Assembly (NCBI RefSeq): GCF_040183065.1
Contig: NC_091122.1
Location: forward strand, 156,863,955 to 156,927,954
Reading direction: 5' to 3'
Length of the DNA: 64,000 nt
Origin: Periplaneta americana
Lineage: Eukaryota; Arthropoda; Insecta; Blattodea; Blattidae
The position numbers were made by a program, and so were the translations under genes. Shown here piece by piece: positions 1 to 41,000 of the stretch. Under the pieces are notes generated by a model. That model saw only the letters and a list, made by a program, of their open reading frames with translations. It had not been told where the DNA came from and searched no databases. Each line of letters begins with the position of its first letter. The stretch's first letter is position 1.

Positions 1-478
1 CAGTGTAAATATTCAGTATTTTATTTAGGCCCAAGACTTTATAATACAATTTCAAACCATTTTCCAAATTTGAAATTTTTTAAAATTGAAACTTTTAAAA
101 AAGAAATTTGTAAAATTATCCATGATATATAATAGTAACAAATGTACTTTTTTTACCTTTTATTTCTATCGACTACATTCATGTTTTTATTGAATATCAC
201 TGGCTTCTGTCGGATTGTCAATTTATATTAAATGTGTATTTTTCTCTCGTTTTCTCTTTCTTCTTTATTCTTGCTCTTGTGTTGTATTTATTGGTTTGAA
301 TTAAGTTACTTACTGTATTTAGTAAACTTTCCTTGTAAATTTTATGTTATATTATTCACTAAGACCACACCGTACACGAGCCTGGCTCTTACGGTAGTGG
401 CTAGAAACATTTTTATTTTATAAATGCAATTGTACTCACTAGGTAGCTAGTGAAAATAAATAAAATAAAAAAATTTAA
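1..478 (+). mobile_element. 3' end of a Jockey/CR1-like LINE
   Basis: The first 130 bases read in one frame as the end of a non-LTR reverse transcriptase ORF: a LGPRLYN block followed by a lysine-rich tail and a stop at about 130. The same GPRLYN motif ends the LINE at 12.5-13.7 kb on the other strand. A 3' UTR follows, with a nested hairpin at 365-400 and an A-rich end (aaataaataaaataaaaaaa) at about 455-474. The element enters from outside the window, so its 5' part is unseen. Clade assignment (Jockey or CR1 group) is inferred from the C-terminal block only. Confidence 0.75.
365..400 (+). other. Nested 3'-UTR hairpin of the LINE
   Basis: Outer stem CCAC-ACCGTA (365-374) pairs with TACGGT-A-GTGG (390-400), with one bulged A. 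The inner stem is GAGC (378-381) with GCTC (385-388). It lies about 55 bases before the A-rich tail, like the hairpins in the other LINE tails of this window. Confidence 0.6.
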
Positions 479-1435
479 GTTTGCTCCCGTCACTTCATGT
501 GACGTGGAAATAAGTTTCCTTCGTTTCAAATCATGTTTAACTAACAGACGAAGAAGGTATGGGTTCGAAAATCTTCGAATGCATGTAGTCATACACTGTA
601 ATGAAATGTACAGAGCAGAACTGTAAATTTGATGTATTTTGCATGTTTGTTTATATATATGCTATAAAATTAGGTGTTTCAACCTATCATAATATTATCA
701 TTATGTTGTTCCAGCCAGGAACCACTTTTATAGCAGACCTGACAGTACCTCTGTGCTGGATGCGGGAGTTTGTTGACATTGAAGTCCGGTCGCTTAGCCA
801 CGTTCAAAGACACAAGTCCCCAAGTTCCGAGCTTTGGTGATTACATGCGACAGACAGCCTATGAAGTAAGGAGACGGAGGAACGGTACTTGGCATGAAAA
901 CTACAACCAGTGGTGGTTCCTGTACTAACATCTTGATCAATCCCGCGGATAAAAATCTCAAGCTTTGCTGTGTCAGTAATGTCACTGCTGTCATCAAGAG
1001 CCAATGAATAATATACGATTTTTCTTGCTTCTTTTTTTAACCTTCCTCTTGAATATAATCAGGAATTTTCTAAATTCTTCTCTCGATACTTGGTCGAGAA
1101 ATTCGTAGTTTTTCAAAATTAAAAACTTCTTATGGACGAGTTATTTAAGCTATTTTAAATATTACTCTTTTGAGAAATTCTGTTCTATTAAAAGGCTTTA
1201 GAGCACGAGATATTTCAAACCCCATCAGGTAGCTAACTTCCTTACATTTATTTATCTCATCTTTCTCTTCCTGGCTATGATTTAAGACATGTCAATTCCT
1301 GGAGTTTAACAGTTCGTTAGCATATAATATTGAATCAGTTTTTCTACAATATTATTATTAATATGGATCAACATTCTTTATTGCAACAGGAAAATTATAA
1401 AACGAGTGTCCATTTGAACAGTCGTCTTCTGTGAC
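479..1435. other. Unassigned spacer
   Basis: No coding block, inverted repeat or known repeat family was recognised. Short open frames at 600-1000 have no recognisable motif and look like chance frames. Confidence 0.4.
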
Positions 1436-1567
1436 CCGAGGTGGTCTTTCATACAGGCAGGTTCGATCCCCGGAAAAGTCGTGATAGAATCTGTAGTGGA
1501 CAATGACCATTGCAGTTTGGGGGGGGGGTACTCTCATTTTCTTCTAGCATTCTAACAACACTCTCAG
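1436..1567 (+). repeat. Fragment of a third SINE family (5' part missing)
   Basis: A B-box-like sequence GGTTCGATCCCCGG sits at 1460-1473. It is followed by a body with gtagtggacaatgacc, a G-run, gtactctcattttc and attctaacaacactctc. This general layout is familiar from arthropod tRNA-derived SINEs. Only the B-box half of the tRNA-like head is visible. It abuts the next SINE. Confidence 0.4.
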
Positions 1568-1821
1568 TCCACACCTGTGGAGTATCGGTTAGCGCGTCTG
1601 GCCACGAAACCAGGTGACCCGGTTTCGATTCCCGGTTGGGGCAAGTTATCTGGTTGAGGTTTTTCTCGGGGTTTTCCCTCAACCCAATATGAGCAAATGC
1701 TGGGTAACTTTCGGTGCTGGACCTCGGACTCATTTCTTCGGCATTATCACCTTCATCTCATTCAGACGTTAAATAACCTAAGATGTTGATAAAGTGTCAT
1801 AAAATAACCTACTAAAAAAAA
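1568..1821 (+). mobile_element. tRNA-derived SINE, family A
   Basis: The tRNA-like head has an A-box-like stretch (ttagcgcgtctggcc) and a B box (ggtttcgattccc, 1620-1632). A body follows (ttatctggttgaggtt, then ccctcaaccc), then the 3' block with ttcagacgttaaataacc and gttgataaagtgtcataaa, and a short A-rich end at 1814-1821. Other copies lie on the minus strand at 34433-34684, 37524-37688 and 41633-41888. Pol III promoters of this type drive SINE transcription, and mobility depends on a LINE enzyme. Confidence 0.85.
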
Positions 1822-2271
1822 GAACACTACCTTCCTACATTTTATCTGTCGTCGGCAATAGTTGTAGACCAAATGGACTGGGGAGAAGTCTTGAGGACAA
1901 TACAAATTTTCGATTTTGATACAGGAAGGGCTTGAACGCCATCTCTCGGACTTGGACAATCACCGCATACATAGGGCATAAAATGGGTCAAAATAAGCAT
2001 CCGTCCTATGTCCAACCGCCTAAAATCGAAGTCGAACCAAGAGAAGTTATGCCTTACGTGTAATTAAATTTAAATTACACTCATGGAAACGGAAATTGTA
2101 AAATCTACTTCGGTTATGGTCATTCAGTGTTATCGTATGATTTAGTTATCTGAATTTTGGCATCTGAAATAACACATATTCAAAATAGACTATAAAAAGG
2201 AGATAATTCTTAAAATTACTATTAGACGAATGCCCGTTCGAACATAAAGTTAAAATAAATTTAAAATTATG
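1822..2271. other. Unassigned spacer
   Basis: AT-rich sequence with no recognised gene or repeat. Confidence 0.35.
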
Positions 2272-2903
2272 TTCGGAAAACGTATTATTTGACTTTCTTG
2301 TGTTAAATGTTACATTACCTCGTTAACATGTTTCAGCCTGCTATTGGCCATCTTCAGAACTGGTTGTTGTTGGTCTTGGCGCCTTTTTGTTTGTGTTTCA
2401 TGTGAGGGTGTGTTTGTGTAGTGTAATGTGGAGTCAAAGAGTGTATGTGTTCTAAAATTGAGTTGTGTGTTGAGAATTTCATTTGGATGTGTTTTTGTGG
2501 TCTGTATATTACGTATTGTTCTAGTGTGTTTAGTTTCTGGCTTTTTGATTGGATTTGTAGAATTTCCATGTCTGTATTGATATCTTTGTAGGTGTGGTTA
2601 GCATTTGTGATGTGTTCTGCATATGCGGAAGTGTTTTTTGTAATTTTGTTATGGCTGTGATGTGTTCTGTGTAAAGTGTTTAAAATGATCTGTCTGTCTG
2701 TCCACAACTCAATTTCAGAACATAAAATCACACACTCTTTGACTCCACACTACAATACACAAACACACCCTCACAGGAAACGCAAACAAAAGGCGCCAAG
2801 ACCAACAACAACCGGTTCTGAAGATGGCCAATAGAAGGCTGAAACATGTTAACGAGGTACTGTAACATTTGACACAAGAAAGTCAAATAAAACGTTTTCC
2901 GAA
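2272..2903 (-). mobile_element. Penelope-like element fragment with inverted terminal arms
   Basis: Two arms of about 200 bp (2272-2467 and 2703-2903) are inverted copies of each other and differ at scattered bases. Between and partly inside them the minus strand encodes the end of a Penelope-type protein. Inverted or partial terminal repeats around a 5'-truncated copy are usual for Penelope-like elements. Each arm carries CTGAAGA ... GAAAC (for example 2818-2824 and 2841-2845) enclosing a GGCC/GGCT stem, and then an ATGTTA/TAACAT stem. This resembles the hammerhead ribozyme core described in Penelope terminal repeats, but the core pairing is imperfect. Confidence 0.65.
2354..2731 (-). pseudogene. 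Penelope-like protein, C-terminal piece of the GIY-YIG region
   Basis: A 125-residue frame holds the signature order AYAEHI...NH.Y.DI...MEIL...LNTLEQYVIY, which matches how the GIY-YIG endonuclease region of Penelope-like proteins ends. In the family the full protein has a reverse transcriptase followed by this nuclease, which nicks target DNA. Here the RT and the GIY-YIG catalytic core are absent, so this is a 5'-truncated relic. The first residues come from the inverted right arm and are not part of the original protein. Recognition is from family memory. Confidence 0.6.
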
Positions 2904-3035
2904 GTAATATAGTGTTAAAAGTAGTGTAATCAAGATGTATAAAAATTATGCCTTTGCCATACATTTATATTTTGGAAACTGTACTCTTCATGTATTTTTC
3001 ATAACACAAGGACAATCAGTAATATAAATCTCGTC

Positions 3036-3400
3036 CATATCTGTGGAGTAACGGTTACCACGTATAACCGCGAAACGAGTGGGCTCGGGTTCAAATTCTG
3101 TTTGGGACAGGTTACCTGATTACGGTTTCTACTGGGGTATTTTCTCAACCAATACAGCAGAATTTTTGAGTGATTTTCGGCGTCGTGCCTCGGACTCATT
3201 TCGCCATCACTAATTCACATATAATCATTCATACCATAGCCGAGGTTAAGTTCGCGGTGCGGTATGCTGTACTTGTACAAGAGCGCAGCCGTTTGGCTAC
3301 AAGTATCATTTACAGAACGGGAGTGGTAAGCGCAATAAACTTCAAGCTGAGGTGCAAGCCTTCGGGTCCCTTCTCCGTAAAAAAGAAAAAAAAAACATAC
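3036..3400 (+). mobile_element. Diverged SINE-A copy with a different 3' tail
   Basis: The head ctgtggagtaacggtta and body (acaggttacctgatta, then ttttctcaacc) match family A but are mutated. After about 3215 the sequence leaves the family A tail and runs through aataaacttcaagctg to an A-rich end (gtaaaaaagaaaaaaaaaac) at about 3378-3400. It is either an old subfamily with another tail or two adjacent repeats. Confidence 0.55.
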
Positions 3401-3564
3401 ATCTCAATCCACTAGAAGTCTTAATAGTCTATTTCATAAAGGTAGGCTATTAACTTACGTAATAAATTTCATTGCCATCTTAGAGAACTTGAACGGAAAA
3501 AATTTAAAAATATATAATTAATTTCGGCGTAGAATCTCTTGCCAATACAGAATCTAGTTTATAT

Positions 3565-4750
3565 TCTAAGATGGAAGGACTGTTGAAAGAAGAGCAGTTA
3601 AGATTCAAGGAGAGAAAAGGTACGAGGGATACAATTGGACTACTACAAACACTCGGCGAAAGATACTTAAAAAAGAATAAAGAAGTGTATACAGTACTGA
3701 GGACCTAGAAAAGGCGTTTGACAGAGTGGATTGGAGTAAACTGATGGGAATCTTGAAGAAGATAGATGTGAATTGGAAAGAGAGATGGGTGTTCAGTAAT
3801 CTCTACATGAAACAACGAATCAAAGTCAGGACAGGAGAAGAAATGTCTGAAGGAAGTGGAATTGGGAGAGGAGTACGTCAAGGATGCCCTTTATCACCTA
3901 CCCTGTTCAACATCTACTTGGAGGATTTAGTGGATAGTAGGGAGGAGTGATAGTAGGAGGAAGAAGAATAAAGTGCATAAGATTTGCTGCTGATATAGTG
4001 TTGTTAGCAGAAGAGGAGATGATATTAAGGGATATGCTACTGGAGCTAAATGACAGCTGTGAGCAGTACGGAATGAAGATAAATGCAAACAAGAAGATCA
4101 TGGTCATATGAAGAAAAATACAGAAGGCAAACCTGCGAATTCTAAATGAGACAGTAGCGCAAGTGGACAGCATCAAATGCTTGGGGTGTACTATAAGCAG
4201 TAACATGAGCTGCTGCCAGGAAGTGAAAAGGAGGATAGCAATGGCAAAGGAAGCTTTAAATAGAAAAATGAGCATTTTCTGCGGACATCTGGAAAAATAA
4301 CTAAAGGAAGAGACTAGTGAAGTGCTTTGTGTGGAGTGTGGCACTGTATGGTGCAGAGACATTGACATTACGACGAAGTGAAGAGGAACGACTAGAAGCA
4401 TTTGAAATGTGGATATGGAGAAGAATGGAACGTGTGGAATGGACAGACAGAATAAGAAATGATACTGTGTTAGAGTGGATGAAGAAAGAATGATGCTGAA
4501 ACTGATCAGGAAGAGGAAAAAGAATTGGTAGGGTCACTGGCTGAGAAGAAACTGCCTACTGAAGGTGTACTGGAAGAAATGATGAACGGGAGGAGTTCGG
4601 GGCAGAAGAAGATATCAGATGATAGATATAGCCTAGGGATCATATGCAGAGACTAAGAGGAAGACAGAAAATAGAAAGACTGGAGAATGTTGAGTTTGCA
4701 GTGAAAGACCTGCCCTTGGGCAGAATACTATGTTTGTATGTATTCATTAA
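3565..4750 (+). pseudogene. RTE-like LINE reverse transcriptase, decayed (family beta, copy 1)
   Basis: RT blocks appear in order but in shifting frames. KGTRDTIGLLQTLGERY is at about 3615-3675. Motif A-like EKAFDRVDW is at about 3705-3735, after a stop. Motif B GVRQGCPLSPTLFNIYLED is at 3870-3928. The catalytic box reads FAAD instead of FADD (3978-3990). NLRILNETVAQVDS follows, and the C-terminus has FEMWIWRRMER and a degraded GHWLRRN-like tail. At least four frame breaks are visible. Copies of the same tail lie at 27755-28110, 51806-52310 and 62108-62350. The clade is inferred. The catalytic change and frame breaks mean it is dead. Confidence 0.8.
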
Positions 4751-5242
4751 TTCATGCGCCATTTTGTATAAATGAATGATCACTTTTACAGTTTTATTAT
4801 ATTCGTATATTCAGGGTTGAAGGTGTTCAACGACAGTTACTTTAAGGGACGAATTCTTGGAATAGTATAAATAGGTAAGTTCTCTACCATTTTGTTCTTT
4901 TAAGCTTAGTTTTAACAGAAATAATTGTTTTACATGATAATTTTTGATCTCATTTAGAGCTTGTATCATAAGTAACTGTTATTACGAGTGAAAGTTTTAG
5001 CGCCCGAGGCGAAACTGAGGGTGATAATTTCCACAAAAGCATAAAATCTGCTTACTCTTGTGTGCTATACAATATTTTATCCATTATTGGTATCTAAATT
5101 TCATTAATGATAACTAAATTAATTTTAATTAGGCCGTTTCTTTGTAATGTGTTCTCTGTGAAGAAGTTAATCTATAAATGAATGGCTTTATGTACGGATT
5201 TTACTGTTGCTAATGTGTTGGTTGTCATGGAGAGAGTGATTT
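4751..5242. other. Unassigned spacer
   Basis: AT-rich, with no recognised coding block. The end of the LINE-beta 3' UTR may extend into its first 30 bases (tgtatgtattcattaattca). Confidence 0.35.
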
Positions 5243-5937
5243 AAAATATTTTGTGCTCGACCATGCCGAAATGTAGTAATTATACACCTGGTAGCAGACC
5301 TTTAATGCATGTCATTAAAGTACACCTACTCATTAAAGGTCAGGTGTTTCAGCCAATGACGACTCAGGTTACAACTGTTCAGCCAATGACAGGTCAGCTT
5401 TCTACCGTTATAAAACCGCAAGTATCGATTATTCTCGGATATGCAATCGAAAGAGAATTAGCGAAAAGTCACGGAGGCTGGAAATCCAATACTGTCGCAG
5501 AAGGTTATGTTCTGTTACTATAATAATTAGCGTTAATTGTAAATAATATTCAAATAAATTCAATTTGTCATCTCGTTTTTCAATGTCGAATTCAATAATC
5601 AAGGTTATATCAAGTTTAACGGGATTACATCAAGGTCAATGACATAATTGTTCCTCGGAAAAAATCAATACTTTCGCGTCTGCGCACATCTCACAATTCA
5701 CGACCTAGAACAAGGTCACTTCCGATCTTGTCAGATACAAATAAAATGTATACATCTGAATAATATCAAGTTAGAAATATGGTTGAGCATAAAAAGTCGT
5801 ATGAAACTCGCCTATAATGGTAATTAAGAAGCTCGTATGAAAATTATGGAACTCGCTTGCGCTCGTTTCATAAACATCCATACTCGCTTCTTAATTACTA
5901 TCATTATAGGCTCGTTGCATAATGTACTATTAATTCG
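5243..5937 (+). repeat. Dispersed repeat carrying a tyrosine-recombinase C-terminus (copy 1)
   Basis: A second copy lies inverted at 16865-17488. The unit starts near ttgtgctcgaccatgccg and its inner end has the inverse, atggttgagcataaa (5774-5789), giving short terminal inverted repeats for a part of about 545 bp. It is followed by a palindrome of about 130 bp (5798-5926) with arms cctataatggtaattaag and cttaattactatcattat. Both parts keep the same order in both copies, so they move or are copied as one unit. Confidence 0.65.
5251..5523 (+). pseudogene. Tyrosine recombinase C-terminal fragment (Crypton/DIRS-like)
   Basis: The end of this 90-residue frame reads GYAIEREL then HGGWKSNTVAEGY. 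In tyrosine recombinases the conserved His/Trp box lies a few residues before the nucleophilic Tyr, and HGGWKS.TVAEGY fits that C-terminal pattern as I know it from Crypton-type elements. The upstream part, with repeated QPMT.Q units, does not look like the catalytic domain. The first Arg and the HxxR box are missing, so it cannot be a full enzyme. The matching segment in the inverted copy (about 17290-17345) keeps the same motif after a frameshift. Confidence 0.5.
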
Positions 5938-6246
5938 TTGCTGTGAATAAAGCCATTGTTTAGCTTGCTAAGGACGATGAAATAAAAACCAGTTGAGATA
6001 CATAAAAATGTTAAATTCAACCATAAATTATTTATCGTCTCTCGTTGCACGAACATTAAAAAATTTCTATTACACATTTACATCTTAAGAAATTTCACTA
6101 CTGTCCGCGTAAGACTATAATACTTTTTTCTTTACCTGAAGATGAAACGTCGACAACTCATATTCAACATCGTGAATTTTGATAATGTAGCCTACAAACT
6201 ATATACATGTCATTGTTATTGTCAATGGGGAAATGGGTGGAGAAAC

Positions 6247-6345
6247 ATTTAAAAGGTCTACACGAAACCGCGTCTTTGCAAGGGATTTGGTGCTCAGGAA
6301 ACTGAATATGTGAGCTCCAAGCCTGTTGGTCACTTCTCTCACACC
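6247..6345. repeat. Dispersed repeat shared with 10645-10745
   Basis: Both sites share tttaaaaggt..., gcgtc.ttgcaagggg-like sequence, and atatgtgagctccaagcctg then ttgg.cact.tctcac. The minus strand of both can be read as a similar peptide (HI.F......PCKDA), which may mean an old coding source. The family was not recognised. Confidence 0.5.
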
Positions 6346-6599
6346 GACACACGATCACAACACTCCTCAATATTATCCATTCCCTCCCACCGAACATCCT
6401 CATATTCATCTTCTTTCACTGTGGCTGTTCCTCGGCTTTGGAATTCCCTACCGAGTAATGTCAGGGACTGTCAGACATCAAACCAATTTAAGAATAGACT
6501 AACGAAATATTTTTCTAACAATTCTTGTTAACAATAATAGCTGTTTCAGATTTCTCAATGTTTGATGGTTATATATCACAGAATAAATATTTTAATTAT

Positions 6600-6634
<35 letters not shown>

Positions 6635-6860
6635 CATCACTATTTCTTACCAATGTTTATTATTGTCACACTAACATTACTTATCCAACTTTCATTATTT
6701 ACTTTCATGTTGTTTTATGGCCTAGATATTAATGTAATAACTATGTAAGCAATTATTTTCAATTAGAATTAGAGTCTGGCTGGGCGGAAGAGAAGGCCTA
6801 CTGGTCTTAGCTCTGCCAGATTAAATAAATAAATTATTATTATTATTATTATTATACTAA
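6346..6860 (+). mobile_element. CR1-like LINE 3' end (copy C1)
   Basis: The coding end reads SIPSHRTSSYSSSFTVAVP then RLWNSLPSNVRDC and stops at about 6531. This is the same block that ends the 920-residue protein at 38.3-41.1 kb. The 3' UTR holds a (TTA)n run at about 6601-6633 and a nested hairpin: outer TCTGGC (6775-6780) with GCCAGA (6815-6820), inner AAGGCC (6793-6798) with GGTCTT (6803-6808). It ends in aaataaataaa plus (TTA)n. It is severely 5'-truncated. Confidence 0.85.
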
Positions 6861-8945: not shown

Positions 8946-9049
8946 AACAGCTGTTTTCAGAGTCTTGAAATTAGTTTCCCAACATGATTTATATGTTCTT
9001 CATCTTTAACTTTGGCATTTCTTATTTTATCTTCCTTGCCATACTTGCC
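8241..9049. other. Spacer with short simple repeats
   Basis: Contains an aagaagaagaagaag run near 8737-8755 and (TTA)n at about 8907-8942. A 41-bp arm (8388-8428) has an inverted partner at 9872-9912. No gene recognised. Confidence 0.4.
8388..8428 (+). repeat. Left arm of a 41-bp inverted repeat
   Basis: The arm contains attgaagggttgatagcaaa and then cgga.aagtccaaaa. Its reverse complement is found at 9872-9912 with two mismatches. The 1.44 kb between them contains the CR1-like tail C2, which could be a later insertion. Confidence 0.6.
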
Positions 9050-9274
9050 CTCCCACCGAACATCCTCATATTCATCTTTCTTTCACTGTGGCTGTTCCTC
9101 GGCTTTGGAATTCCCTACCGAGTAATGTCAGGGACTGTCAGACATCAAACCAATTTAAGAATAGACTAACGAAATATTTTTCTAACAATTCTTGTTAACA
9201 ATAATAGCCGTTTCAGGTTTCTCAATGTTTAATGGTTATATATATCACAGAATAAATATTTAAATTATCTCATT

Positions 9275-9305: not shown

Positions 9306-9518
9306 CTATTTCTTACCAATGTTTATTATTGTCACACTAACATTACTTATCCAACTTACATTATTTACTTTCATGTTGTTTTATGGTCTAGATATTAATG
9401 TAATAACTATGTAACCAACTATATTCAATTAGAATTAGAGTCTGGCTCGGCGGAAGAGAAGGCCTACTGGCCTTAGCTCTGCCAGATTAAATAAATAAAT
9501 TATTATTATTATTACTAC

Positions 9519-12544: not shown

Positions 12545-13740
12545 ATGCATTGTATTATTGTTGTTTATTGTTAATGAAATAACACTGACAGAAATACAAT
12601 CTTAGTTCTTCCCTGAAAGAGTAAAAAAGTCGTGCTCAGGGAGATATCTAAACACAAAGATAATTTTTTGACACAAACTGGGTCAAGAAAAAAAAAATTA
12701 CGGGAATAAATTAAATTTAAAAATACAAATTTCAATTTTAACAATTTAAGTCATACAAATACATATACATATTAAATCAATATATATTCTTTAAAAATTA
12801 AATTCCTAACGCTATTTTTGAAATTTCTGATACTAAAATTTTCCAAATTTGGGTATTTATCAATTATTTTATTGTATAACCTTGGACCAAAGTAGGTACC
12901 ATGGCTCAGAGCTGTGCTTGTGAAACACTTTGGTTCCTCTAGTCGTATAAAATCGGATCTTTTAGTTCCATATTTATGATGATACAATTTGAATTTATTA
13001 CGGTTTTTATGTATGAAGATTAATAAGGCAATATAATAAATATGTTTAATTTTCAAAACATTAAAATCAGTGAACAAAAGCTCGGATGAGTAATCAATTG
13101 GTTTATTAAGGCATATTTTAATCATTCTTTTCTGAATAAGTATTAGTGGAGTGAGATTAGAATTACAAGCATTTCCCCACCCTAAATTCCATACTGGAGA
13201 ATGGATTGAAATAAAGCTAAATAAATGAGACGTAAAATATTAACTGGTAAATATGACCGAAGTATAACAAAGATATAAATTGTTTTACGTAATCTATTGC
13301 ATAAATATGTAATAAGTTTGTTCCATCGTAAGTGTTGGTCGATCGTAATGCCTAAATACTTAACTTCTGAGGATTCGGTTAATACGGGACATTCACAATT
13401 TCGAGAAGAACAATCTGAATGATGAATTTTGAGCCTAAAGGAAGATTGAGGAGATTGAAGACCACTGGACCGTAGTGAAAATGGAACAACAGTTGTTTTG
13501 GATCTGTTTAAGGGAAGAACGTTTGAATCAAACCACGCTTTAATTACCTGTAATCCATTATTCGCATTAATATAAATGCTTTCCCAAGATTGTTCACCAG
13601 AAAGAATTACGGTATCATCCGCATATGAATATATAACCCTATTATATTTGCGTAAATCAGTTAATAACAAATCATTTATATAAATCAAGAATAAAATTGG
13701 ACCAAGAACTGTGCCCTGAGGGACCCCTACTTTTATGTTA
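12545..13740 (-). mobile_element. Jockey/CR1-like LINE, 5'-truncated
   Basis: On the minus strand the RT reads GVPQGTVLGPILFLIYIND (motif B, about 13735-13675), then YSYADDTVILSG (catalytic box, about 13615), KYLGITIDQHLRWN, a short break near 13180-13130, and a second frame (13125-12772) ending LYNKII...NFKNSVRNLI. The RT palm 5' of motif B and the endonuclease are missing. The 3' UTR on the left contains TCCCTGA (12610-12616) paired with TCAGGGA (12636-12642), then an aataaacaacaataa end. Catalytic YADD is intact, but the ORF is broken. Confidence 0.85.
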
Positions 13741-14423
13741 TGATTATGATATAAGATGTATGTGCAGAAACCCGAAGTATAGTGTAATATACCTGCATTT
13801 GTGTCATAACTGTAACCTGCAGAATTTTTTCAGCATTTTTCCTCATGTCAGTGACTCTTGTTGCCTGTATGTACTTTCGCTCGTCTTCAAGATGGAAATG
13901 TCATACAAGTTTGAGATGCTTGTATCTCTATAGGTTACGCCTGTATCTGTTTATATTTACAGCAGTCAAATCTTTCAAGTCTCTTTTTTCTGCCTTCCAT
14001 TTTGTATCGCTAATCTTAGAATTTGAATGTAAGTAGGATGTTTGTGTGGGAATGATAAGCCTTTGCTTAAGATTTTCTGCCAGGTTTCTGTAAAACTGAT
14101 CAGGGTTTATTTCAACTGTCTTTGTCCTGCTGTGTAGCTCAATATCTTTTATGCCAGATATCAAAATCAAAATAAATGTTTTTCTAACATCTAACACCCT
14201 CCATTTTCGAGTCTTTTAAAGACTTAATATGTTTCCGAGTTTTTTTTTTTTTTTGCCGGTATGGTAACAGCGTGTTTTTATTTTAGACGGTATGGCGTAC
14301 CGGCCCGTACCGGCTCAACTATAGCACTCATTATTTTGTAAAAATTTAGTATGTTTGCATTATTTTACTCAACTTGTGCTTGTATAACTACATCAATTTT
14401 TTAGTGTTATTTAAATATTAGGC
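13741..14423. other. Spacer with one unrecognised frame
   Basis: The minus frame 13928-14197 (89 residues, polar, with FYRNLAENLKQRL) has protein-like composition but I cannot name it. It could be a transposase scrap. A GC-rich patch with gtaccggcccgtaccggc is at about 14297-14313, after a 15-T run. Confidence 0.3.
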
Positions 14424-16063
14424 GGTAATTATTAACCTGTAGGCTATTATTGCAAATTGTTTCAGTAATTATTAACTTGTATTATTGAAAATAGTATAGG
14501 TAATTATTAACTTGTATTATTGCGAATTGTATCGGTAATTATAAACTTGTATTAGTGAAAATTGTATCGGTAATTATCTTGTATTGTTGAAAATTGTATC
14601 GGTAATTATCTTGTATTGTTGAAAATTGCATCGGTGATTATTAACGTGTATTATTGCAAATTGTATTGGTAATTAACTTGTATTATTGAAAACTCTATCG
14701 GTAATAATTAACTTGTATTATTGAAAATTGTATCGGTAATTATTAACTTATATTATTGAACATTGTATCGGTAATTATTAACTTGTATTATTGAAAATTG
14801 TATCGGTAATTATTAACTTGTATTATTGAAAATTGTATCGGTAATTATTAACTTGTATCATTTCAAATTGTATCCGTAATTATTAACTTGTAGTATTTAA
14901 AATTGTATCGGTAATTATTAACTTATATCATTTCAAATTGTATCGGTAATTATTAACTTGAAGTATTGAAAATTGTATCGGTAATTATTAACTTGTATTA
15001 TTGTAAATTGTATCGGTAATTATTAACTTGTGATATTGCAAATTGCATCGGTAATTAACTTGTAATAATTCAAATTGTATCGGTAACTATTAACTTGTAT
15101 TATTGAAAAGTGTATCGGTAATTATTAACTTCTATTATTGCAAATTGTATAGCTAATTATTAACTTGTATTAATGAAAATTGTATCGGTAAATATTAACT
15201 TGTATTATTGCAAATTGTATCGGTAATCATTAACTTGCATTAATGAAAATTATATCGGTAAATATTAACTTGTATTATTGCAAATTGTATAGGTGATTAT
15301 TAACTTGTATTATTGCAAATTGTATCGGTAATTATTAACTTGTATTACTGCAAATTGTATCGCTAATTATTACCCTGTATTATTGCAAATTGTATCGGTA
15401 ATTATTCACTTGTATTATTGCAAATTGTATCGGTAATCATTAACTTGCATTAATGAAAATTATATCGGTAAATATTAACTTGTATTATTGCAAATTGTAT
15501 CGGTAATTATTAGCTTATATTATTGAAAATTGTATCGGTAATTCTTAACTTGTATTATTGCAAATTGTATCGGTAATTATTAACTTGTATTACTGCAAAT
15601 TGTATCGCTAATTATTACCCTGTATTATTGCAAATTGTATCGGTAATTTTTAACTTATATTATTGCAAATTGTATCGGTAATTATTAACTTGTATTAATG
15701 AAAATTGTATAGGTAAATATTAACTAGTATTATTGCAAATTGTATCGCTAATTATTACCCTGTATTATTACAATTTGTATCGGTAATTATTAACTTGTAT
15801 TATTGCAAATTGTATCGGTAATTATTAACTTGTATTAATGAAAATTGCATAGGTAAATATTAACTTGTATTATTGCAAATTGTATAGCTAATTATTAACT
15901 TGTATTAATGAAAATTGTATCGGTAAATATTAACTTGTATTATTGCAAATTGTGTCGGTAATTATTAACTTGCATTAATGAAAATTATATCGGTAAATAT
16001 TAACTTGTATTATTGAAAATTGTATTGGTAATGATTAACTTGTATTATTGCAAAATGTATCGG
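14424..16063. repeat. 35-bp minisatellite, about 47 units
   Basis: The unit is about ggtaattattaacttgtatt followed by attgaaaattgtatc, 35 bp. Variants alternate gaaaatt and gcaaatt, and some units have cgctaattattaccctg. Variant blocks recur at multiples of 35 bp (cggtaatcat at 15221 and 15431, 210 bp apart, and the ccctg variant 245 and 140 bp apart), so segmental duplication has acted inside the array. The array stops at 16063, directly at a CR1-like LINE 3' end. Confidence 0.95.
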
Positions 16064-16117
16064 CTTCTTTTGTTTTTGGCTAAGTGGAAGAGAAGGTTGA
16101 TGGCCTTAACTTCGCCA

Positions 16118-16155
<38 letters not shown>
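16064..16155 (+). mobile_element. CR1-like LINE 3' terminus fused to the minisatellite
   Basis: It contains gtggaagagaagg and gatggccttaacttcgccag, the same 3' terminus as the LINE at 38.1 kb, then (AAT)n from 16119. Hairpin: outer TTTGGC (16075-16080) with GCCAGA (16114-16119), inner AAGGTT (16093-16098) with GGCCTT (16102-16107) using two G-T pairs. No RT coding remains. Confidence 0.8.
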
Positions 16156-20999: not shown

Positions 21000-21389
21000 G
21001 GAAAATATTTGGAGCTAAGAGGGATGAAGTTACAGGAGAATGGAGAAAGTTACACGACACAGAACTTCACGCATTGTATTCTTCACCTGACATAATTAGG
21101 AACATTAAATCCAGACGTTTGAGATGGGCAGGGCATGTAGCACGCATGGGCGAATCCAGAAATGCATATGGAGTGTTAGTTCGGAGGCCGGAGGGAAAAA
21201 GACCTTTAGGGAGGCCGAGACGTAGGTGGGAAGATAATATTAAAATGGATTTGAGTGTGGGGGGATATGATGATAGAGAATGGATTAATCTTGCTCAGGA
21301 TAGGGACCAATGGCGGGCTTATGTGAGGACGGCAATGAACCTCCGGGTTCCTTAAAAGCCATAAGTAATTAAGTAAGTAAGTAATATGC
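21000..21389 (+). mobile_element. RTE-like LINE family alpha, 3' fragment (copy 1)
   Basis: An open frame from about 21003 to 21354 encodes the C-terminal part: [41 protein letters not shown] and WRAYVRTAMNLRVP. It ends with (TAAG)n (21362-21388). Other copies are at 33426-34427, 37741-41442 (split), 53428-53930 (minus) and 57914-58878. The RT catalytic part is absent. Its 5' truncation point abuts the inverted repeat ending at 20999. Confidence 0.9.
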
Positions 21390-29704: not shown

Positions 29705-30630
29705 TTTTAAGTGTTACTAGCATTGGAATATGGTGCTGCATATTGGGATCCTTACAGATTAGAACATATAAAGACACTGGAAAAGATTCAAGAACGGGCT
29801 CTCAAGTGTTGTAATAATTCACCATTAAAATGGGACATACGGACCGGAGAACGCGAATTCGATTATGCGCAATGTTCAAAACATACAGAGGTGAGCCTGC
29901 CTGGGGAGAAATAAAAAGTAGGTTGCAGCCGCCAAATTTCTCTTCAAGGAACGACCACTCATATAAATTGAGGGAAAGAAGGCAGAGGACGGACACTGGA
30001 AAGTTTTCTTTTCTCAATCGCACTATCAGGGACTGGAATGCTTTACCTGCAGACTTACTAAAGGCTTTACCAACAACCAAAAATGTATTTAAAAATAGGC
30101 TTAAGGACTTTACTAATAGACGGTAGTATATGATACACACTACTTAAAGGGTGTAATTGATATCTTGTTATTTGAAGTGTTCTATCAGTGAGGAAGTGTG
30201 TTGTGTCAGTGAAGTGGCTGTGCAAAGTATTTGAACAATGGAATGGTTAGAAGTGTAGTGAAATCAGGTAGAATCAGTGCAGTGAGTGAGTTGACAGGGA
30301 AATAAGTGTAGTGCTGAAAGGTACTTGTGCAGGTATGAACCTGTCACACTCGTGGGTCTTAGTTCGAACTTAGGGTTAAGATACAAATTAGATTTACTTT
30401 AAATGTTATTTTAAGTGACCATGCTTCATTTAATTTAGGATACTCCTTATTATTTTATTATTATTTTATTATTATTATTATTATTTTGTTATTATTAATT
30501 ATTGTTTTTATTAGTTGTGTTTATTATTAATTGTCATTATAGAGTGTAATTAGTTACCACTGCCACCGGGTATATACCCATTTGCAGTGTGAATATATAT
30601 ACATACATACATACATACATATGGTACTAA
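29705..30630 (+). mobile_element. Jockey/CR1-like LINE 3' fragment
   Basis: LEYGAAYWDPYRLEHIKTLE then IQERALKCC (29711-29820) is the C-terminal region of a LINE RT. After a one-base shift the frame 29830-30126 continues TDRRTRIRLCAMFKTYRG ... RDWNALPADLL ... FKNRLKDF. The long 3' UTR ends with a nested hairpin: CACTGC (30558-30563) with GCAGTG (30584-30589), inner GGGTATATACCC (30568-30579). A (ATAC)n tail follows (30600-30621). Catalytic RT motifs are missing. Confidence 0.85.
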
Positions 30631-31119: not shown

Positions 31120-31510
31120 TCGTTATTCTTTTTTTCTGGTTATTATATGCTTATTTAAGTTGTGTTAACTCTCGCTAAGTGGTTTTATTATTTTATTTTA
31201 TCAGTCTTAGTATTTATTTTATTATTGTTAATATTTTTGTTTTATTATTACTAATAATTAATTAATTTGTATTACTATCTTTGTATTATCTCCGTCACGG
31301 TTATTCTATTATTATTATTATTATTACTATTATTATTATTATTAAATATTTCTACATTAACATTATTGTTGATCTCTGTAAAATTTATGTAGACTACTGG
31401 ACTGTACCCGAGCACGAGCACGTGCTCGTTTCGGGTATCTATTCATATGTACCATTTCAAATGTAAATTGTGAATAAATTTGAATTTGAAATTTGAAAAA
31501 AAAAAAACAT
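31120..31510 (+). mobile_element. LINE 3' UTR and tail
   Basis: The left limit is uncertain. There is a (TTA)n run at 31308-31343. Nested hairpin: outer TACCCGA (31405-31411) with TCGGGTA (31431-31437), inner perfect palindrome CGAGCACGTGCTCG (31415-31428). The end is gaataaatttgaatttgaaa and poly(A) at about 31496-31508. No RT coding visible; classed by analogy with the other tails. Confidence 0.6.
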
Positions 31511-33425: not shown

Positions 33426-34427
33426 CAGAGTCCGTATAGGTCATTTTCTATCTGATGCTTTTCCAATTCACTGCGGGCTAAAGCAGGGAGATGCACTATC
33501 ACCTTTACTTTTTAACTTCGCTCTAGAATATGCCATTAGGAAAGTTCAGGATAACAGGCAGGGTTTGGAATTGAACGGGTTACATCAGCTTCTTGTCTAT
33601 GCAGATGACGTGAATATGTTAGGAGAAAATACACAAACGATTAGGGAAAACACGGAAATTTTAGTTGAAGCAAGGAAAGCGATCGGTTTGGAAGTAAATC
33701 CCGAAAAGACAAAGTCTATGATCATGTCTCGTGACGGGAATATTGTACGAAATGGTAATATAAAAATTGGAGATTTATCCTTCGAAGAGGTGGAAAAATT
33801 CAAATATCTTGGAGCAACAGTAACAAATATAAATGACACTCGGGAGGAAATTAAACGCAGAATAAATATGGGAAATGCGTGTTATTATTCGGTTGAGAAG
33901 CTCTTATCATCCAGTCTGCTGTCCAAAAATCTGAAAGTTAGAATTTATAAAACAGTTATATTACCGGTTGTTCTGTATGGTTGTGAAACTTGGACTCTCA
34001 CTCTGAGAGAGGAACATAGGTTAAGGGTGTTTGAGAATAAGGTGTTTAGGAAAATATTTGGGGCTAAGCGGGATGAAGTTACAGGAGAATGGAGAAAGTT
34101 ACACAACACAGAACTGCACGCATTGTATTCTTCACCTAATATAATTAGGAACTTAAAATCCAGACGTTTGAGATGGGCAGGGCATGTAGCACGTATGGGC
34201 GAATCCAGAAATGCATATAGAGTGTTAGTTGGAAGATCGGAGGGAAAAAGACCTGTAGGGAGGCCGAGACGTAGATGGAAGGATAATATTAAAATGGATT
34301 TGAGAGAGGTGCGGTATGATGATAGAGACTGGATTAATCTTGCACAGGATAGGGACCGATGGCGGGCTTATGTGAGGGCGGCAATGAACTTTCGGGTTCC
34401 TTAAAAGCCATTTGTAAGTAAGTACGT
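33426..34427 (+). CDS. RTE-like LINE family alpha, RT C-terminal half (copy 2)
   Basis: Open from about 33426 to 34404. It begins inside the RT at [19 protein letters not shown] (motif B region [14 protein letters not shown]). The catalytic box is [11 protein letters not shown] (33587-33619). Next come [47 protein letters not shown] and [14 protein letters not shown]. The full protein would have an endonuclease and the first half of the RT upstream; these are missing, so it is a 5'-truncated copy with a preserved frame. The annotated Met start at 33565 is not a true start. The tail is (TAAG)n. Clade inferred. Confidence 0.9.
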
Positions 34428-34432
34428 ATTCT

Positions 34433-34684
34433 ATTCGGTTATTTTACGACGCTGTATCAACATCTCAGGTTATTTAGCGTCTGAATGAAATGATGGTGAT
34501 AATGCCGGTGAAATGAGTCCGGGATTCACCACCGAAAGTTACCCAGCACTTGCTTATATTAGGTTGAGGGTTAACCCAGGAAAAAACCTCAACCAGGTAA
34601 CTTGCCCCGACAGGGATTCGAACCCGGGCCACCTGGTTTCGCTGCCAGACGCACTGACCGTTACTCTACAGGTGTGGACGATTC
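34433..34684 (-). mobile_element. SINE family A, inverted
   Basis: The tail is first (gttattttacgacgctgtat), the body gttacccagcacttg and aacctcaaccaggtaact, and the head last (cgaacccgggccacctggtt, cgttactctacaggtg). It inserted directly behind the LINE-alpha tail. A 7-bp attcggt lies on both sides. Confidence 0.85.
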
Positions 34685-35109: not shown

Positions 35110-36600
35110 CTTTATCGACTAAGATTCTACTCCCCTCATATTTTCTCTATTCCGTTCTCCTCTAATTTTCTCTTTTCTCTCTTCCTTTTCCACTCGCCTC
35201 TTTTGCTTCTCTTATCTTTTTCTTTCTTTCCTCTCCCCTTCTTCCTTTGTCTCTATCTTCCCTTTTCTCTCTCTTCCCTCTCCTCTTCTCTCACCCTTCC
35301 ATCCTTTTTACTCTTTTTTCCCCTCCCATCTCCCTTCTTTATCTTTTCCCCTTTCCTCTCCCTTTTCCGCTCCTTTTCTTTCTCCCCTTTCTCACTTTCT
35401 CTTCTTCTCTCCTACTCCCTCTTTTTCTCTTTCCTCCCCTTTCTTCTGTGCCCTCTCCTCTTCTTCCCATCCCAGTTTTTTCTTTTCCCCCTCTACTCTT
35501 TTTTACTCTTTCTTTCCTTCCACCTTCCTTCCTTTCCTTCCCTTCTCTTCTCTCCCCTTCCCTCCTCTCCTCTCCTAATTTTCTACTCTCGTCTCTTTTC
35601 TCCCCGTCTCTCCTCTCCTCTCTTTTCTCCCGTCTCTCCTCTCCTCTCCTCTCCTCTCTTTTCTTCCCGTCTTTCCTCTCCTCTCCTCTCTTTTCTCCCC
35701 GTCTCTCTTCTCCTTTCCTCTCTTTTCTCCCCGTCTCTCGTCTCGTCTCCTCTCCTCTCTTTTCTCCCCGACTCTCGTCTCCTCTCCTCTCTTTTCTCCC
35801 CGTTTCTCCCCTCCTCTCTTTTCTCAGTCTCTCCTCTCCTCTCTTTTCTCCCCGTCTCTCCTCTCCTCTCTTTTCTCCCAGACTCTCTTCTCTTCTCTCT
35901 TTTCTCCCCGTCACTCCTCTCCTCTCTTTTCTCCCCGTCTCTCCTCTCCTCTCTTTTCTCAGTCTCTCCTCTCCTCTCTTTTCTCCCCGTCACTCCTCTC
36001 CTCTCTTTTCTCCCCGTCTCTCCTCTCCTCTCTTTTCTCCCCGTCTCTCCTCTCCTCTCTTTTCTCCCCGTCTCTCCGCTCCTTTCTTTTTTCCCCGTCT
36101 CTCCTCTCTTTTCTCTCCTCTATTTTCTCCCCGTCTTTCCTATTTCCTTTTCTCCCCGTCACTCCTCTCCTCTCTTTTCTCCCCGTCTCTCCTCTCTTTT
36201 CTCTCCTCTATTTTCTCCCCGTCTCTCCCATTTTCTTTTCTCCCCGTCTCTTCTCTTCTCTCCCAGTCTCGTCTCTTCTCTTCCCTTCTCTTCTCTTCTC
36301 TTCTCTTCTCTTCTCTTCTCTTCTCTTCTCTTCTCTTCTCTTCTCTTCTCTTCTCTTCTCTTCTCTTCTCTTCTCTTCTCTTCTCTCTCCCTTTTTCGCT
36401 CCTTTTCTGTCTCCCCTTTGCTACTTTCTCTTCTTCGCTCCTTTTCTCTCTCCTATTCCCTCTTTTCCCCTTTTTTCTCTGCCCTCTCCTCTTCTTCCCT
36501 CTTCTGATCTTTCTTTTCTGCTACTATCTTTTCTCTCTTCTCTCCTTTACTATTTTCCCTCCACACCCCCTATCTTTTTTCTCTTCATATCCTCCATTCA
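35110..36600 (+). repeat. 1.5-kb polypyrimidine tract with nested satellites
   Basis: The plus strand is almost only C and T. The middle (about 35590-36270) is a minisatellite of tctcctctcctctcttttct plus ccccg (about 25 bp). 36283-36385 is (TTCTC)n. Because stop codons need A, long frames of 434 and 538 codons stay open by composition. They encode only Ser/Leu/Phe/Pro/Arg strings and are not genes. Confidence 0.95.
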
Positions 36601-37510
36601 GCACAATCTCACAGAACATTTATTCCTTTTCTTCACTCACCTACTCCTCTTCCTTCTCGTTTAATCTCTTTTCTTATCCTTCAAATCTAATTCTGTCTGT
36701 CAGGTTTGCTCTTTCTCTTTTATATATCTTATCACTGTGTTCGTCAGTATGGCTTTATCAATGCGATCTGCATATTCTTTACAGTAATTTTGTAGCTTTA
36801 GTAGGACTAGGCTACGTGTTTACTCCTATGCAGCTCTTCTTCCTCTGTATTCGTCTGTTATAATTTTTATGATTGTCACATAGAAATAAGCCGGATATTA
36901 TGTTTGTATGTATGTATTTAATGCATAGTTCCGATGTCGGAAATAAGTACCCCCTGATGGAAGGTTCAATATCTATAAGGAATTTAGTTAGTACATTTAT
37001 TTGCCGCCAGGGGCAGTAGAACAAGAGCTAAGCTAATCGTATCAAACGCCATCTAGTATACAACTAAGATATTGATAGAACGCGAGAGAGGAAAAATTGG
37101 TCCATAAGCTCTAATTTAGGTTTGGAAGTCTTTAAGGTGCCGGAAAACTCAGACACGGGACAACGGCTTAGGCCCTCCCAGAGGACCTGAGTCCCGAATT
37201 TTTGCGTTGAAAAATCGGCATCCCTTGGATGTAGAGGAGAACATGGCTATGTTTAGTATACTCGTATTTAATTTGTATTTATTTCTTGTATTACTTTTGC
37301 ACGTTCTTCTTATAGTAGGGTACCACAAACTGTGGTCATTCGAGTAATAAATGTTGTCCATGTGACATGTGGAGGAAAGGAACTGGCCCCCTGTCCCATT
37401 ATCTCCTGGTTTAGTTGCCCCATGAGTGATGCCTTATTGGTGTCACTTATGAGGTTGAAAACTGTCGTTGGACAGTTGGCTAAACAACAATATCACATGA
37501 GATTCGTTAA
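36601..37510. other. Unassigned spacer
   Basis: The composition returns to normal. No gene or repeat recognised. Confidence 0.3.
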
Positions 37511-37523
37511 TTCTGTAGAGAAT

Positions 37524-37688
37524 TTTTAGTAGGTTATTTTACGACGCATTATCAACATTTTAGGTTATTTAGCGTCTGAATGAGATGAAGGTGATAATGC
37601 CGGTGAAATGAGCCCGGGGTCCACCACTCATATTGGGTTGAGGGAAAACCCCGGTACCTCAGCCAGGTAACTTGTCCCGACAGGGAAT
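37524..37688 (-). mobile_element. SINE family A, inverted and 5'-truncated, with 13-bp duplication
   Basis: The tail and body match family A, but the sequence stops at cttgtcccgacaggga, so most of the tRNA head is missing. ttctgtagagaat flanks it at 37511-37523 and 37689-37701. The clean duplication shows it inserted already truncated. Confidence 0.9.
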
Positions 37689-37740
37689 TTCTGTAGAGAA
37701 TGACGGAAGGAAGACAATTCTTTAAATACTATTATTGTAG

Positions 37741-38060
37741 GTAATCCTGCTATTATTCGGTTGAGAAACTTTTGACATCCAGTCTGCTGTCCAAAAAACT
37801 GAGATTTAGAATCTATAAAACAGTTATATTACCGGTTGTTCTGTATGGTTATGAAACTTGGACTCTCACATTGAAAGAGGAACAAAGGTTAAGGGTGTTC
37901 GAGAATAAAGTACTTAGGAATACCTATATTTGGGGCTAAGAGGGACGAAGTTATAGGAGAATGGAGAAAATTACATAACGCAGAACTGCACGCATTGTAT
38001 TCGTCACCTAACATAATTACGAATACTAAATCCAGAGGTTTGAGATGGGCAGGGCACGTA
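37741..38060 (+). mobile_element. LINE family alpha, left part of a split copy (copy 3)
   Basis: It starts in the segment [10 protein letters not shown], with frame breaks, through VLYGYETWTL and KRDEV.GEW to RGLRWAGH. It is cut at 38060 by the CR1-like LINE and resumes at 41218. Confidence 0.85.
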
Positions 38061-38061
38061 T

Positions 38062-38096
<35 letters not shown>

Positions 38097-41000
38097 TTCT
38101 GGTGTAGTTAAGGCCATCAGGCCTTCTCTTCCACAACACCAGGAATACAAATACAATAACAGAAATAAAAAGGAAAAAAAAAACACTATAAACGAAGTAA
38201 AGTCACACAAAAATATACACAGGTTGCAGTCACACAAACTTTAAATGAGTGATTAAGTATAATTAATTGTATCCTAATTAACTAACATAAACAAGAAACT
38301 TGCGATTTTAATCTGGAGTAAAAAAAAAAACACAAATCGACACTTCTAGCAATATCTAAAAAGCATTAAACAATACAAAATTTTCCAATTTAATTTTGAA
38401 TTGTGATAAAGTCCGGCAGTCCCTGACATCATTAGGTAGCGAATTCCAGAGACGAGGTATTTCTACAGTGTACGAGGATGAGTATAGAGACGTTCTATGA
38501 TGAGGGATAGAAAGAAGTGCTTGATGTCGGTTTCGAAGAGTTGTAAGAAATTGAAAGCGCGATAAGAGATAATTCGGAGTAGAAGTATGCATGATTCTAA
38601 ATAGAAGAGACAGTGAATGTATTGTTCTTCGTTCCTTCAGACGCACCCATGAAAGTAACTGGAGGGAAGGTGTTATATGGTCAAATTTACGAGTATTGCA
38701 GATGAATCGTATGCACACATTATGAACACGTTGTAGTCTCTCAGCTAAGAGTGAACTTACATTAGTTAGTAAGGAATCGCAATAATCAAAATGGGGCATT
38801 ACAAGCGTCTGAATAAGATTCTTTTTTAGACTAAGTGGTAGAAATTCTTTCATATGAAACAAAGAGTGAAGTTGAGAAAATATTTTTTTGCAAGTGTGTG
38901 TTACTTGGGTGTTCCAATTTAGATCGCTATCCATAAAAATGCCAAGATTTTTAACTGTTTCACTGTATTTAACAATAATCCCATTCAATGTTATATGTGG
39001 TATAGTACCACTATCAAGAGTACTTCGTAGACGATTATGTCCCATTACGATTGCTTGCGATTTCTCTGGATTTAACCTTAATCCAAATTTGTGTGACCAC
39101 AGTGAAATCGAATTTAAGTCTTCGTTTATTTTATTTACTGCGTCACTAGTCTCATCAGGGTGGAAATGCAAATAAATTTGCAAGTCGTCAGCATACATAT
39201 GGTATTTGCAGTGTTTTATCATTTTAGTCACGTTATTAATATAAATCATGAAGAGTAAAGGTCCGAGAACTGATCCTTGTTGAATTCCAGATTTCACGAC
39301 ACACCATCTTGAAGAATAATCGCATGCAATGACACATTGTTGACGTTCGCGAAGGTAGGATTCAAACCAAGTAACAGAACTTTCAGAAAGATGCAGAAGT
39401 CTTAATTTACATAATAGAAGGTCCGTGTCAACTGTATCAAATGCCTTACTGAAGTCAAGTAATGTCAGTAATGTTAATTTACGTTCATCTGTGGCTTCAC
39501 GTATATCCTCATTCACTTTTAGTAGTGCTGTAGTCGTACTATGTCCATTTCTGAACCCGGATTGGTATTCGTCCAGTAAGGCATGTTCGGTTAGATAGTT
39601 CATTAGTTGTTTGTGAACAATACGTTCCAGAGCTTTTGATAGGGCAGGTAGGATACTAATTGGACGGAAATCATTTGCACATAATGGGGTTTTAATTTTA
39701 GGGATCGGACGGATAAAGGCTTTCTTCCAGAGGTTCGGGTAGGTAGAAGTTATGAGTGAGGCGTTGAATATATGTGTTAATGTCGGCAGTATTATGTCCA
39801 ATATTTTCTTCAATAATATTATACTAATATTATCCACACCTTCAGCTTTAGAAGTAATACGTTTTATTGCCGCTCTCACTTCAGTTTCTGTGACATAAGT
39901 GAAGAAAAATATTTCTCTATCCGGAATTGGAGTCATTTGTAATTCGTTAACTGTCTGCTGTTTGTCGACCGTATCCAAGGTTATTGACTGTACCGTTGCA
40001 AAATGGTCATTTAGTTCGTCAAGAGAAACTGGCACACTGTCTACCTGAGTCCTGGGATTTCCTAAGCCAATTGTCCGTAAATTTCTCCACAGTTTGGAAG
40101 GGTCAGCTCCCCCCTTCAAGATGTTATGAAAATGTCTCAGTTTTGCGTTTCTAATGGCTTGAGTAGTTCTGTTACGTAAGAGTTTATAATAATTATAAGA
40201 GATTTCTGTCTTGTCATGTTTAAACGTTTTGTATGCAGCGTTTCTGTCCGTAATCATACTACGTATGTCAGCAGTCATCCATGGTGCTGGTGTCCTTTTT
40301 ACGCGTTTAGATTTGATAGGAGCATGCTTGTCATATAAATTTATAATATACTCATTTAGTTTAACAAGTTTCTCGTCAACAGTATGTAAGGTCCATATTG
40401 AGTCCCAGGGAATCTTTATTGCGTCTTCAAGTAGTTGGGTTTCATCAATACGTTTCAAGTCACGATACTTTATGAGTTTAGGTGTGGGCTTGGGACACTT
40501 CAAAGAATATACTAGATAAATAATATCGTGGTACGAAATTCCCGAAGCCGCACATTGTCCATGTTTTTGTACTTTGTCTGCATTCTTCGTAATAATTAAG
40601 TCTAATAGGGATTCGGAAGATTGGGTATGGTGGGTTGGTTCAAGGGGAAGGACTGCTAGATCAAGAGCCTGGAACATGGTCAATAGATGTCTAGTGTAGT
40701 TCGAATCAGAGGCTAACAAATTTGTGTTAAGATCACCCATTATTAAGACGTGTTCATAATCTGTGATGAATTCCAATAACGATCTCTCGATCTCTGCAAT
40801 ATCGTTAATCTTCGGGGGTTGGTAAATTACACAAATAAGGCATTTCTGAAAGCTTGTCAGTACTTCTACAAATAGCATTTCAGGTTTTCCGGCATACTCG
40901 CCAGGAGATGTGTGTATTATTCTGGGATTGAGATCTGATCTGACATATGCAGCAACGCCGCCCCCTTGTTTATTTAAACGATCATTTCTTAATAGCGTAT

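Follow-up and report, generated by a model that had tools for sequence, protein, structure and literature searches.

Several long interspersed nuclear elements (LINEs) in a stretch of 64,000 nucleotides (nt) of the cockroach Periplaneta americana (contig NC_091122.1; this whole stretch is called the window here) carry near their 3' ends a hairpin in which an outer stem encloses an inner stem. We consider it probable (roughly 0.77) that these hairpins are elements of the LINE RNA which are recognized for target-primed reverse transcription. The present analysis demonstrates their position, their recurrence, and covariation in the outer stem of one hairpin group (group B) and in both stems of a set of RTE-like families. 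We infer further that the ORF2 protein would bind the hairpins and that they would have a role in priming.

Covariation in group B and in RTE-like tails

The hairpins of group B have an outer stem of at most 10 pairs with one usual mismatch, an internal loop, the inner stem AAGGCC/GGCCUU and a terminal loop of 4 nt. An alignment of 31 rows, with each place used once, was assembled from four tails of the window, seven tails obtained by approximate matching (at most 6 errors) from loci fetched otherwise, and 20 places found with search patterns and picked for varied inner letters. On the basis of the upstream sequence, 30 of the 31 rows were sorted by eye into 13 lineages, the second tail of locus L047 being the exception. 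Within the lineages all 30 row pairs extend at least 10 nt 5' of the outer stem, with a median of 69 nt; between lineages a BLAST hit was obtained for 394 row pairs, and 68 of these extend as far. As judged from these comparisons, the similarity between lineages appears mostly to begin at the outer stem, and the 3' untranslated regions (3'UTRs) are mostly different.

The main test used one row per lineage (the first listed) and 500 shuffles, and was limited to the outer columns left free by the search patterns, which fix columns 16-24 and 41-44 and part of the inner stem. It was found that 81.7% of the cells are paired as compared to 70.4% in the shuffles, that the covariation score is 0.410 as compared to 0.174, and that 12 cells are changed on both sides as compared to 2.9 (0 of 500 shuffles in each case). 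One outer pair occurs among the 13 lineages as GC (3), UA (3), AU (2), CG (2) and UG (1) and is unpaired in two. When the structure was slid along the same 13 rows only 20-56% of the cells paired, and a slide of +1, with 55.8% paired, had a covariation of 0.122. On all 31 rows the covariation was 0.220 as compared to 0.126 (0 of 500). RNAalifold, run on the 31 rows, agrees with the drawn structure on pairs 7-52 to 12-47, on 14-45 and on five of the six inner pairs; it pairs columns 21-22 with 43-44 instead of the drawn inner end of the outer stem. The inner stem was rejected as evidence of covariation, as it is nearly invariant. The terminal loop varies between lineages, whereas the side of the internal loop looks conserved; this conservation is partly fixed by the patterns, yet it is also seen in the 11 rows found without a pattern. 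AATAAA lies closely 3' of the hairpin, just before or within the microsatellite, in 11 of the 13 lineages (in one copy or more of each). Examples are window positions 38084-38098 (minus strand) and loci L067, L068 and L071.

The second set of tails came from 60 loci fetched as controls from 150 listed RVT_1 matches, chosen by reverse transcriptase (RT) score regardless of hairpins; the label RTE-like was given to them by reading. They were dropped as negative controls because many of their tails carry nested hairpins. One row was taken from each of eight families with alignable tails, which were chosen after the hairpins had been seen, and the structure was drawn on the same alignment. Both helices together are 93.8% paired as compared to 74.3% in the shuffles, with a covariation of 0.531 as compared to 0.136 (both 0 of 500), and five of the eight pairs show a double change (4 of 500). 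Slid structures were 23-45% paired. A ninth family, L060, was excluded from the alignment and keeps, by reading, about two outer and three inner pairs. Nested folds of other kinds are seen in L028, L016 and L058; L046 has letters in common with L058, yet it folds as a single stem (z +0.42), and in L020 and L035 no clear end was found. In the eight aligned families no AATAAA separates the hairpin from the (GAA)n or (GAT)n that directly follows it. The distance from the end of the hairpin to this tail is nearly fixed (5-11 nt in all eight), whereas the position of the stop codon ranges from -7 to +30 nt relative to the start of the hairpin; it falls inside the hairpin in L025 and L047 and after it in L013 (about 1225-1340 in read orientation). 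This speaks for an RNA constraint which follows the tail and not the reading frame. The tails of three RTE-like loci (L025, L047 and L048) resemble the group B core: in both, GGAA or GTAA precedes AGGC(C)-loop-GGCCU, with AA after it.

Pairing of this kind could also be kept in DNA, for example as cruciforms, and Watson-Crick pairs alone cannot separate an RNA hairpin from a DNA hairpin. However, U-G is the commonest type at pair 12-47 of group B (19 of 29 sequences), and on the sense strand the element occupies the 3' end, its order relative to the tail being fixed; we give selection for a DNA structure hardly any credence.

Hairpin groups and the level expected by chance

The earlier note on this DNA had listed seven LINE tails with nested stems and one with an outer stem only. 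Its sequences and coordinates are correct, and on reading and folding each of the seven can form both stems; the eighth, at 12610, has on its minus strand an inner stem of 2 bp at most. That the tails are LINE 3' ends was borne out, except that those at 38099 and 12610 belong to minus-strand elements. The seven do not amount to seven families: they fall into three hairpin groups and about six lineages, namely group B, group A/D (to which 12610, group E, is related) and group C. The tails at 6775, 9441, 16075 and 38099 make up one group, B, because they have the core GGAAGAGAAGG..CCTTA.CT in common with small differences; those at 6775 and 9441 are copies with 94-95% identity. Group C has one member in the window, at 30558. 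Between the differing outer stems of 365, 31405 and 12610 (A, D and E) CACGA..CTC is common to all three. The hairpin was said to stand just before the tail; by reading this applies to B and C, where it ends within about a dozen nt, and not to A and D, which end about 50-57 nt from the A-rich tail.

The claim that pairing is kept by compensating changes stands for the outer stem of group B and for both RTE-like stems; the inner stem of B and group C showed no such changes on both sides. The differing stems of different groups had also been counted as kept pairing; since these stems are not homologous, their differences are not covariation. Within A/D/E the outer stems differ and still pair (ACCGUA/UACGGU, UACCCGA/UCGGGUA, GCCCGA/UCGGGC and UCCCUGA/UCAGGGA), and in L087 one of five straight outer pairs fails, although it folds well with a bulge. 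This suggests compensation, as far as a hand table of five rows can do so. Another copy of the D hairpin in the genome, at locus L084, lies 3' of a LINE C-terminus that has 69% identity (100 aa) with the window frame 47979-48392. At L088 a D-like hairpin stands 3' of a C-terminus which resembles the group E one (31%, E 4.5e-19). Copies of C vary mainly in the internal loop (ATTT, ATT, ACT), with single stem changes in addition. The view that the feature crosses LINE types was supported, and more broadly than had been stated: it extends to the 13 lineages of group B and to the RTE-like families.

A single nested hairpin proves nothing, because hairpins of such grade are common in the window: a descriptor with an outer stem of at least 6 bp and an inner stem of at least 4 bp matched 107 times in 2 x 64 kb (both strands). 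Of the seven tails in the list it found six on the strand to which they belong and missed 365. Significance therefore lies in the recurrence at tails and in covariation. Genome patterns were run on the 3.23-Gb assembly with reversed patterns as the control, and individual places were drawn from among the matches listed (about the first 100 per pattern). The group B core with the inner part free gave 27,401 matches as compared to 52 reversed, a stricter B core 19,563 as compared to 0, the C pattern 7,007 as compared to 1 and the D pattern 2,498 as compared to 1. These counts mark repeat families and not structure. The exact patterns had no match in the viral and prokaryote contig collections.

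Folding energies of the eight listed tails range from z -2.1 to -5.3 (with 12610 on the plus strand in that set); the minimum-energy folds of 6775 and 9441, taken alone, depart from the nested drawing. Window tails beyond the list that stand before short repeats comprise four RTE-like copies, a three-copy family (4700, 52256 and 62297) and a tail at 54456. Six stretches of these were folded, with z from +0.50 to -1.31; four are nested, one (near 4700) has the inner stem only and one, near 52256, does not fold in this manner. In 13 family ends the last 60 nt had a mean z of -1.01 as compared to +0.07 in 182 upstream windows of the same loci (p = 1.2e-4). As the family ends and the unlisted window tails mostly have weak z scores, the folding energy of single sequences is insufficient as evidence.

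It could be argued from these figures that the nested hairpins arise by chance or by selection on the part of the reader, short inverted repeats being frequent and the tails having been picked for having them. The 107 descriptor matches fit such a view, as does the weak folding, little better than that of shuffled sequence, of most family ends (13 examined) and of the six additional window tails; group C, taken alone, might be due to chance. However, the RTE-like loci, which were fetched regardless of hairpins, covary (their rows were chosen afterwards as alignable), group B covaries in columns that are free in the patterns, and the reversed controls gave 0 to 52 matches as compared to thousands, which speaks for repeat families rather than for structure. 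Chance is largely contradicted for B and the RTE-like set, and as a general account we hold it to be very improbable.

Features of the window

The hairpins and the LINE features associated with them are collected in Table 1. The tail at 38099 lies about 210 bp 3' of an open frame of 961 aa with endonuclease and RT domains (the 38356 frame). A LINE C-terminus was found 5' of the tails at 365, 6775, 9441, 12610 and 30558; no LINE frame or C-terminus was seen in the upstream stretches examined for 16075 and 31405.

Table 1. Terminal hairpins and associated LINE features in the window (z, folding score of the hairpin)
Feature	Positions	Strand	Details and basis
Group A hairpin	365..400	+	z -3.34; outer ACCGUA/UACGGU (plus CCAC/GUGG), inner GAGC/GCUC
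LINE C-terminus 5' of group A hairpin	22..129	+	protein comparison
Group B hairpin, lineage m	6775..6820	+	outer UCUGGC/GCCAGA; folded
LINE C-terminus remnant 5' of 6775 tail	6343..6525	+	57% identity to the 38356 frame
Group B hairpin, lineage m, second copy	9441..9486	+	sequence comparison
LINE C-terminus remnant, two pieces, 5' of 9441 tail	9045..9192	+	protein comparison
Group E tail	12610..12642	-	z -2.27; outer UCCCUGA/UCAGGGA, motif GCACGA
RT fragment with RVT_1 at 13182-13829, and a C-terminus from a different frame, 5' of 12610 tail	12772..13829	-	domain scan, protein comparison
Group B hairpin, lineage l, after 35-bp tandem array	16075..16119	+	folded
Group C hairpin	30558..30589	+	z -3.27; outer CACUGC/GCAGUG, inner GGGU/ACCC
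LINE C-terminus 5' of group C hairpin	30013..30123	+	protein comparison
Group D hairpin	31405..31437	+	z -5.30; outer UACCCGA/UCGGGUA, inner ACGAGC/GCUCGU, one-base bulge between stems in the fold
Group B hairpin, lineage h	38099..38142	-	z -3.98; outer CUGGUGU/ACACCAG, inner AAGGCC/GGCCUU
Microsatellite tail (AATA)10 adjoining that hairpin	38059..38098	-	by sequence
Open frame of 961 aa, Exo_endo_phos and RVT_1	38356..41241	-	domain scan
PW stretch between endonuclease and RT of the 38356 frame	40219..40284	-	site of the ZfL2 tail-binding region (PMC4176376, available part)
RTE-like tail fragment, weak nested hairpin before (GAT)n, beyond earlier list	54456..54479	+	z -1.28
RTE-like tail, beyond earlier list	58831..58863	+	inner GAACC/GGUUC inside outer GGC/GCC; z -1.16
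Tail of another LINE-like family, beyond earlier list	62297..62328	+	outer CAGUG/CACUG, inner 4 bp; z -0.97

Other copies of the RTE-like family of the 58831 tail end near 21352 (z -1.31), 34404 and 53455 (minus). A sequence repeated at 1565-1821, 34427-34679 and 41633-41890 looks, by reading, tRNA-derived and like a short interspersed nuclear element (SINE). An RTE-like copy ends at 34424, and the SINE-like copy at 34427 directly adjoins it. The tandem array before the 16075 tail has some 46 copies of the 35-bp unit (14445-16063), and the tail begins within about a dozen bases after it. Two plus-strand open frames were assessed by reading: 46939-47883 resembles a LINE C-terminal zinc-finger region, with no Pfam match, and 43106-43495 resembles a piece of a transposase.

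Probable recognition of LINE RNA by its own protein

In the available parts of PMC5135761 and PMC4176376 the 'stringent' LINE tails are described as stem-loops which are interrupted, 4-6 bp before the terminal loop, by an internal loop or bulge. The nested double stem, which the earlier note had presented as an observation of its own, equals this published form: the inner stems measure 6 bp in B, 4-5 bp in the RTE-like families, 4 bp in C and 6 bp in D. A difference lies in the terminal loop, for which the part of PMC5135761 at hand gives a consensus of 5-7 nt; it has 4 nt in B, C and D, and about 3 to 8 nt in the RTE-like families. The closest tested case is ZfL2 of zebrafish (PMC4176376, available part), in which retrotransposition is lost when the 3' stem-loop is deleted or swapped and withstands an exchange of the stem. 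The terminal loop gives specificity there, and a protein region between endonuclease and RT binds the stem-loop.

The hairpins described here resemble those of the L2-clade elements UnaL2 of eel and ZfL2-1 and ZfL2-2 of zebrafish in that a terminal hairpin adjoins the repeat tail and is interrupted, within a few bp of its tip, by an internal loop or bulge, in that stem letters are exchangeable if paired, and in that the endonuclease-RT protein has PW between its domains. Unlike ZfL2, where the loop gives specificity, in group B it is the internal-loop side that looks conserved. The UnaL2 3' element exists as an Rfam family. With Rfam 15 the window had no match at the gathering threshold, and 11 loci searched at E up to 5 gave three matches, none of them a LINE element. 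RTE stem-loops in mammals are named in the available part of PMC5135761, and as in the RTE-clade LINE/SINE 3' ends described in such sources, the RTE-like hairpin stands directly before the repeat tail with compensatory changes; unlike those, as far as the available descriptions go, it overlaps or precedes the end of the frame in three of eight families. The plant L1 LINE/SINE 3' hairpin of Ohshima (PMC3747384, available part) likewise has variable stem letters, compensatory changes and conserved loop and flank letters; it differs in clade and sequence, and the nested layout is not described in that part. A literature search, with Repbase and subscription journals outside its scope, found no description of the present tails. 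The kind of hairpin is already known, and its breadth is new: one genome has it in 13 lineages of group B, in eight RTE-like families and in several families that stand alone. RTE-like hairpins that overlap the reading frame, and the persistence of the B hairpin on different 3'UTRs, are also added. Terminal hairpins look unusually widespread among the LINEs of this genome.

Recognition in target-primed reverse transcription is the most likely role because ZfL2 provides a tested case and the layout fits, save for the 4-nt loop in B, C and D. In such a mechanism the ORF2 protein of each element, with its endonuclease and RT, would bind the terminal hairpin of its own RNA. It would thereby carry the adjoining 3' end, a microsatellite or an A-rich stretch, to the nicked target, where target-primed reverse transcription would begin. 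The outer stem would be a scaffold whose letters are free to change while paired, and the conserved inner part (in group B the internal loop and the inner stem) would give family identity. In the part of the literature at hand the tail-binding region of the L2 clade (cTBR) has Pro, Trp, Glu and Trp at offsets 0, 1, 17 and 20 between endonuclease and RT; in an ungapped comparison the 38356 frame has P and W (residues 320-321) at the first two offsets and other residues at 17 and 20. Among 61,312 first-look candidates in the genome for the last 142 aa of this frame, the 150 with the best scores are 99-100% identical.

It could be possible that the hairpins serve the LINE RNA otherwise than in priming, such as in 3' end formation, in stability or in the protection of a non-polyadenylated end. 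The AATAAA close behind the hairpin in most lineages of group B would suit this, and covariation reveals an RNA structure, not which protein reads the hairpin. On the other hand the eight RTE-like tails lack AATAAA between hairpin and repeat, and the stringent LINE stem-loops tested bind ORF2 (PMC4176376, available part); we regard such a role as unlikely.

Recognition for priming also has a number of results standing against it. In the 13-lineage test of group B two measures fell short of 0 of 500, namely pairs with a double change (3 as compared to 1.4; 25 of 500) and further pair types (11 as compared to 8.4; 39 of 500), and the +1 slide has an equal number (3) of double-change pairs. On all 31 rows two of the five measures are unremarkable (74 of 500 for double-change pairs and 267 of 500 for further pair types). 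No inner pair of group B is changed on both sides among the 13 lineages, and many changes in the listed copies break a pair. In nine of 77 lineage pairs the median upstream reach is 10-29 nt, so the 13 lineages are not all independent. The structures were drawn on the same sequences on which they were then counted, which favours the percent paired, and the shuffles ignore relatedness. In the RTE-like set the innermost pair of L041 is impossible, as it would leave a loop of 2 nt, and z was -2 or lower in only one of the 13 family ends. The 12610 tail has no real inner stem, and group C showed no covariation among the copies compared. The 38356 frame has Tyr and Phe where the ZfL2 tail-binding region has Glu and Trp (offsets 17 and 20, ungapped). 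No B-box-like site was seen within 500 nt upstream of 11 group B tails, and this small sample thus provides no partner SINE that would support recognition in trans.

A bolder reading takes the hairpin as a module of evolution that nearly all LINE types of the genome would have and that would persist or change hands independently of the 3'UTR. The outer stem would be a covarying scaffold, and the identity tag read by ORF2 would lie in the internal loop and the inner stem rather than in the terminal loop. It is drawn from the occurrence of one group B hairpin on 13 mostly different 3'UTRs, and we consider it doubtful. If it were true, the likeness of the B core (GGAA..AGGCC-loop-GGCCU..AA) to the RTE-like tails would reflect shared descent or exchange between clades.

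The way in which a LINE protein chooses its own RNA has been worked out in just a few elements. About twenty LINE lineages with a common layout and differing letters, at least one of them with a long open frame in many near-identical copies, make up a set in which the letters of the hairpin can be tested against the residues that bind the tail. This set also bears on the extent of stringent recognition in insects.

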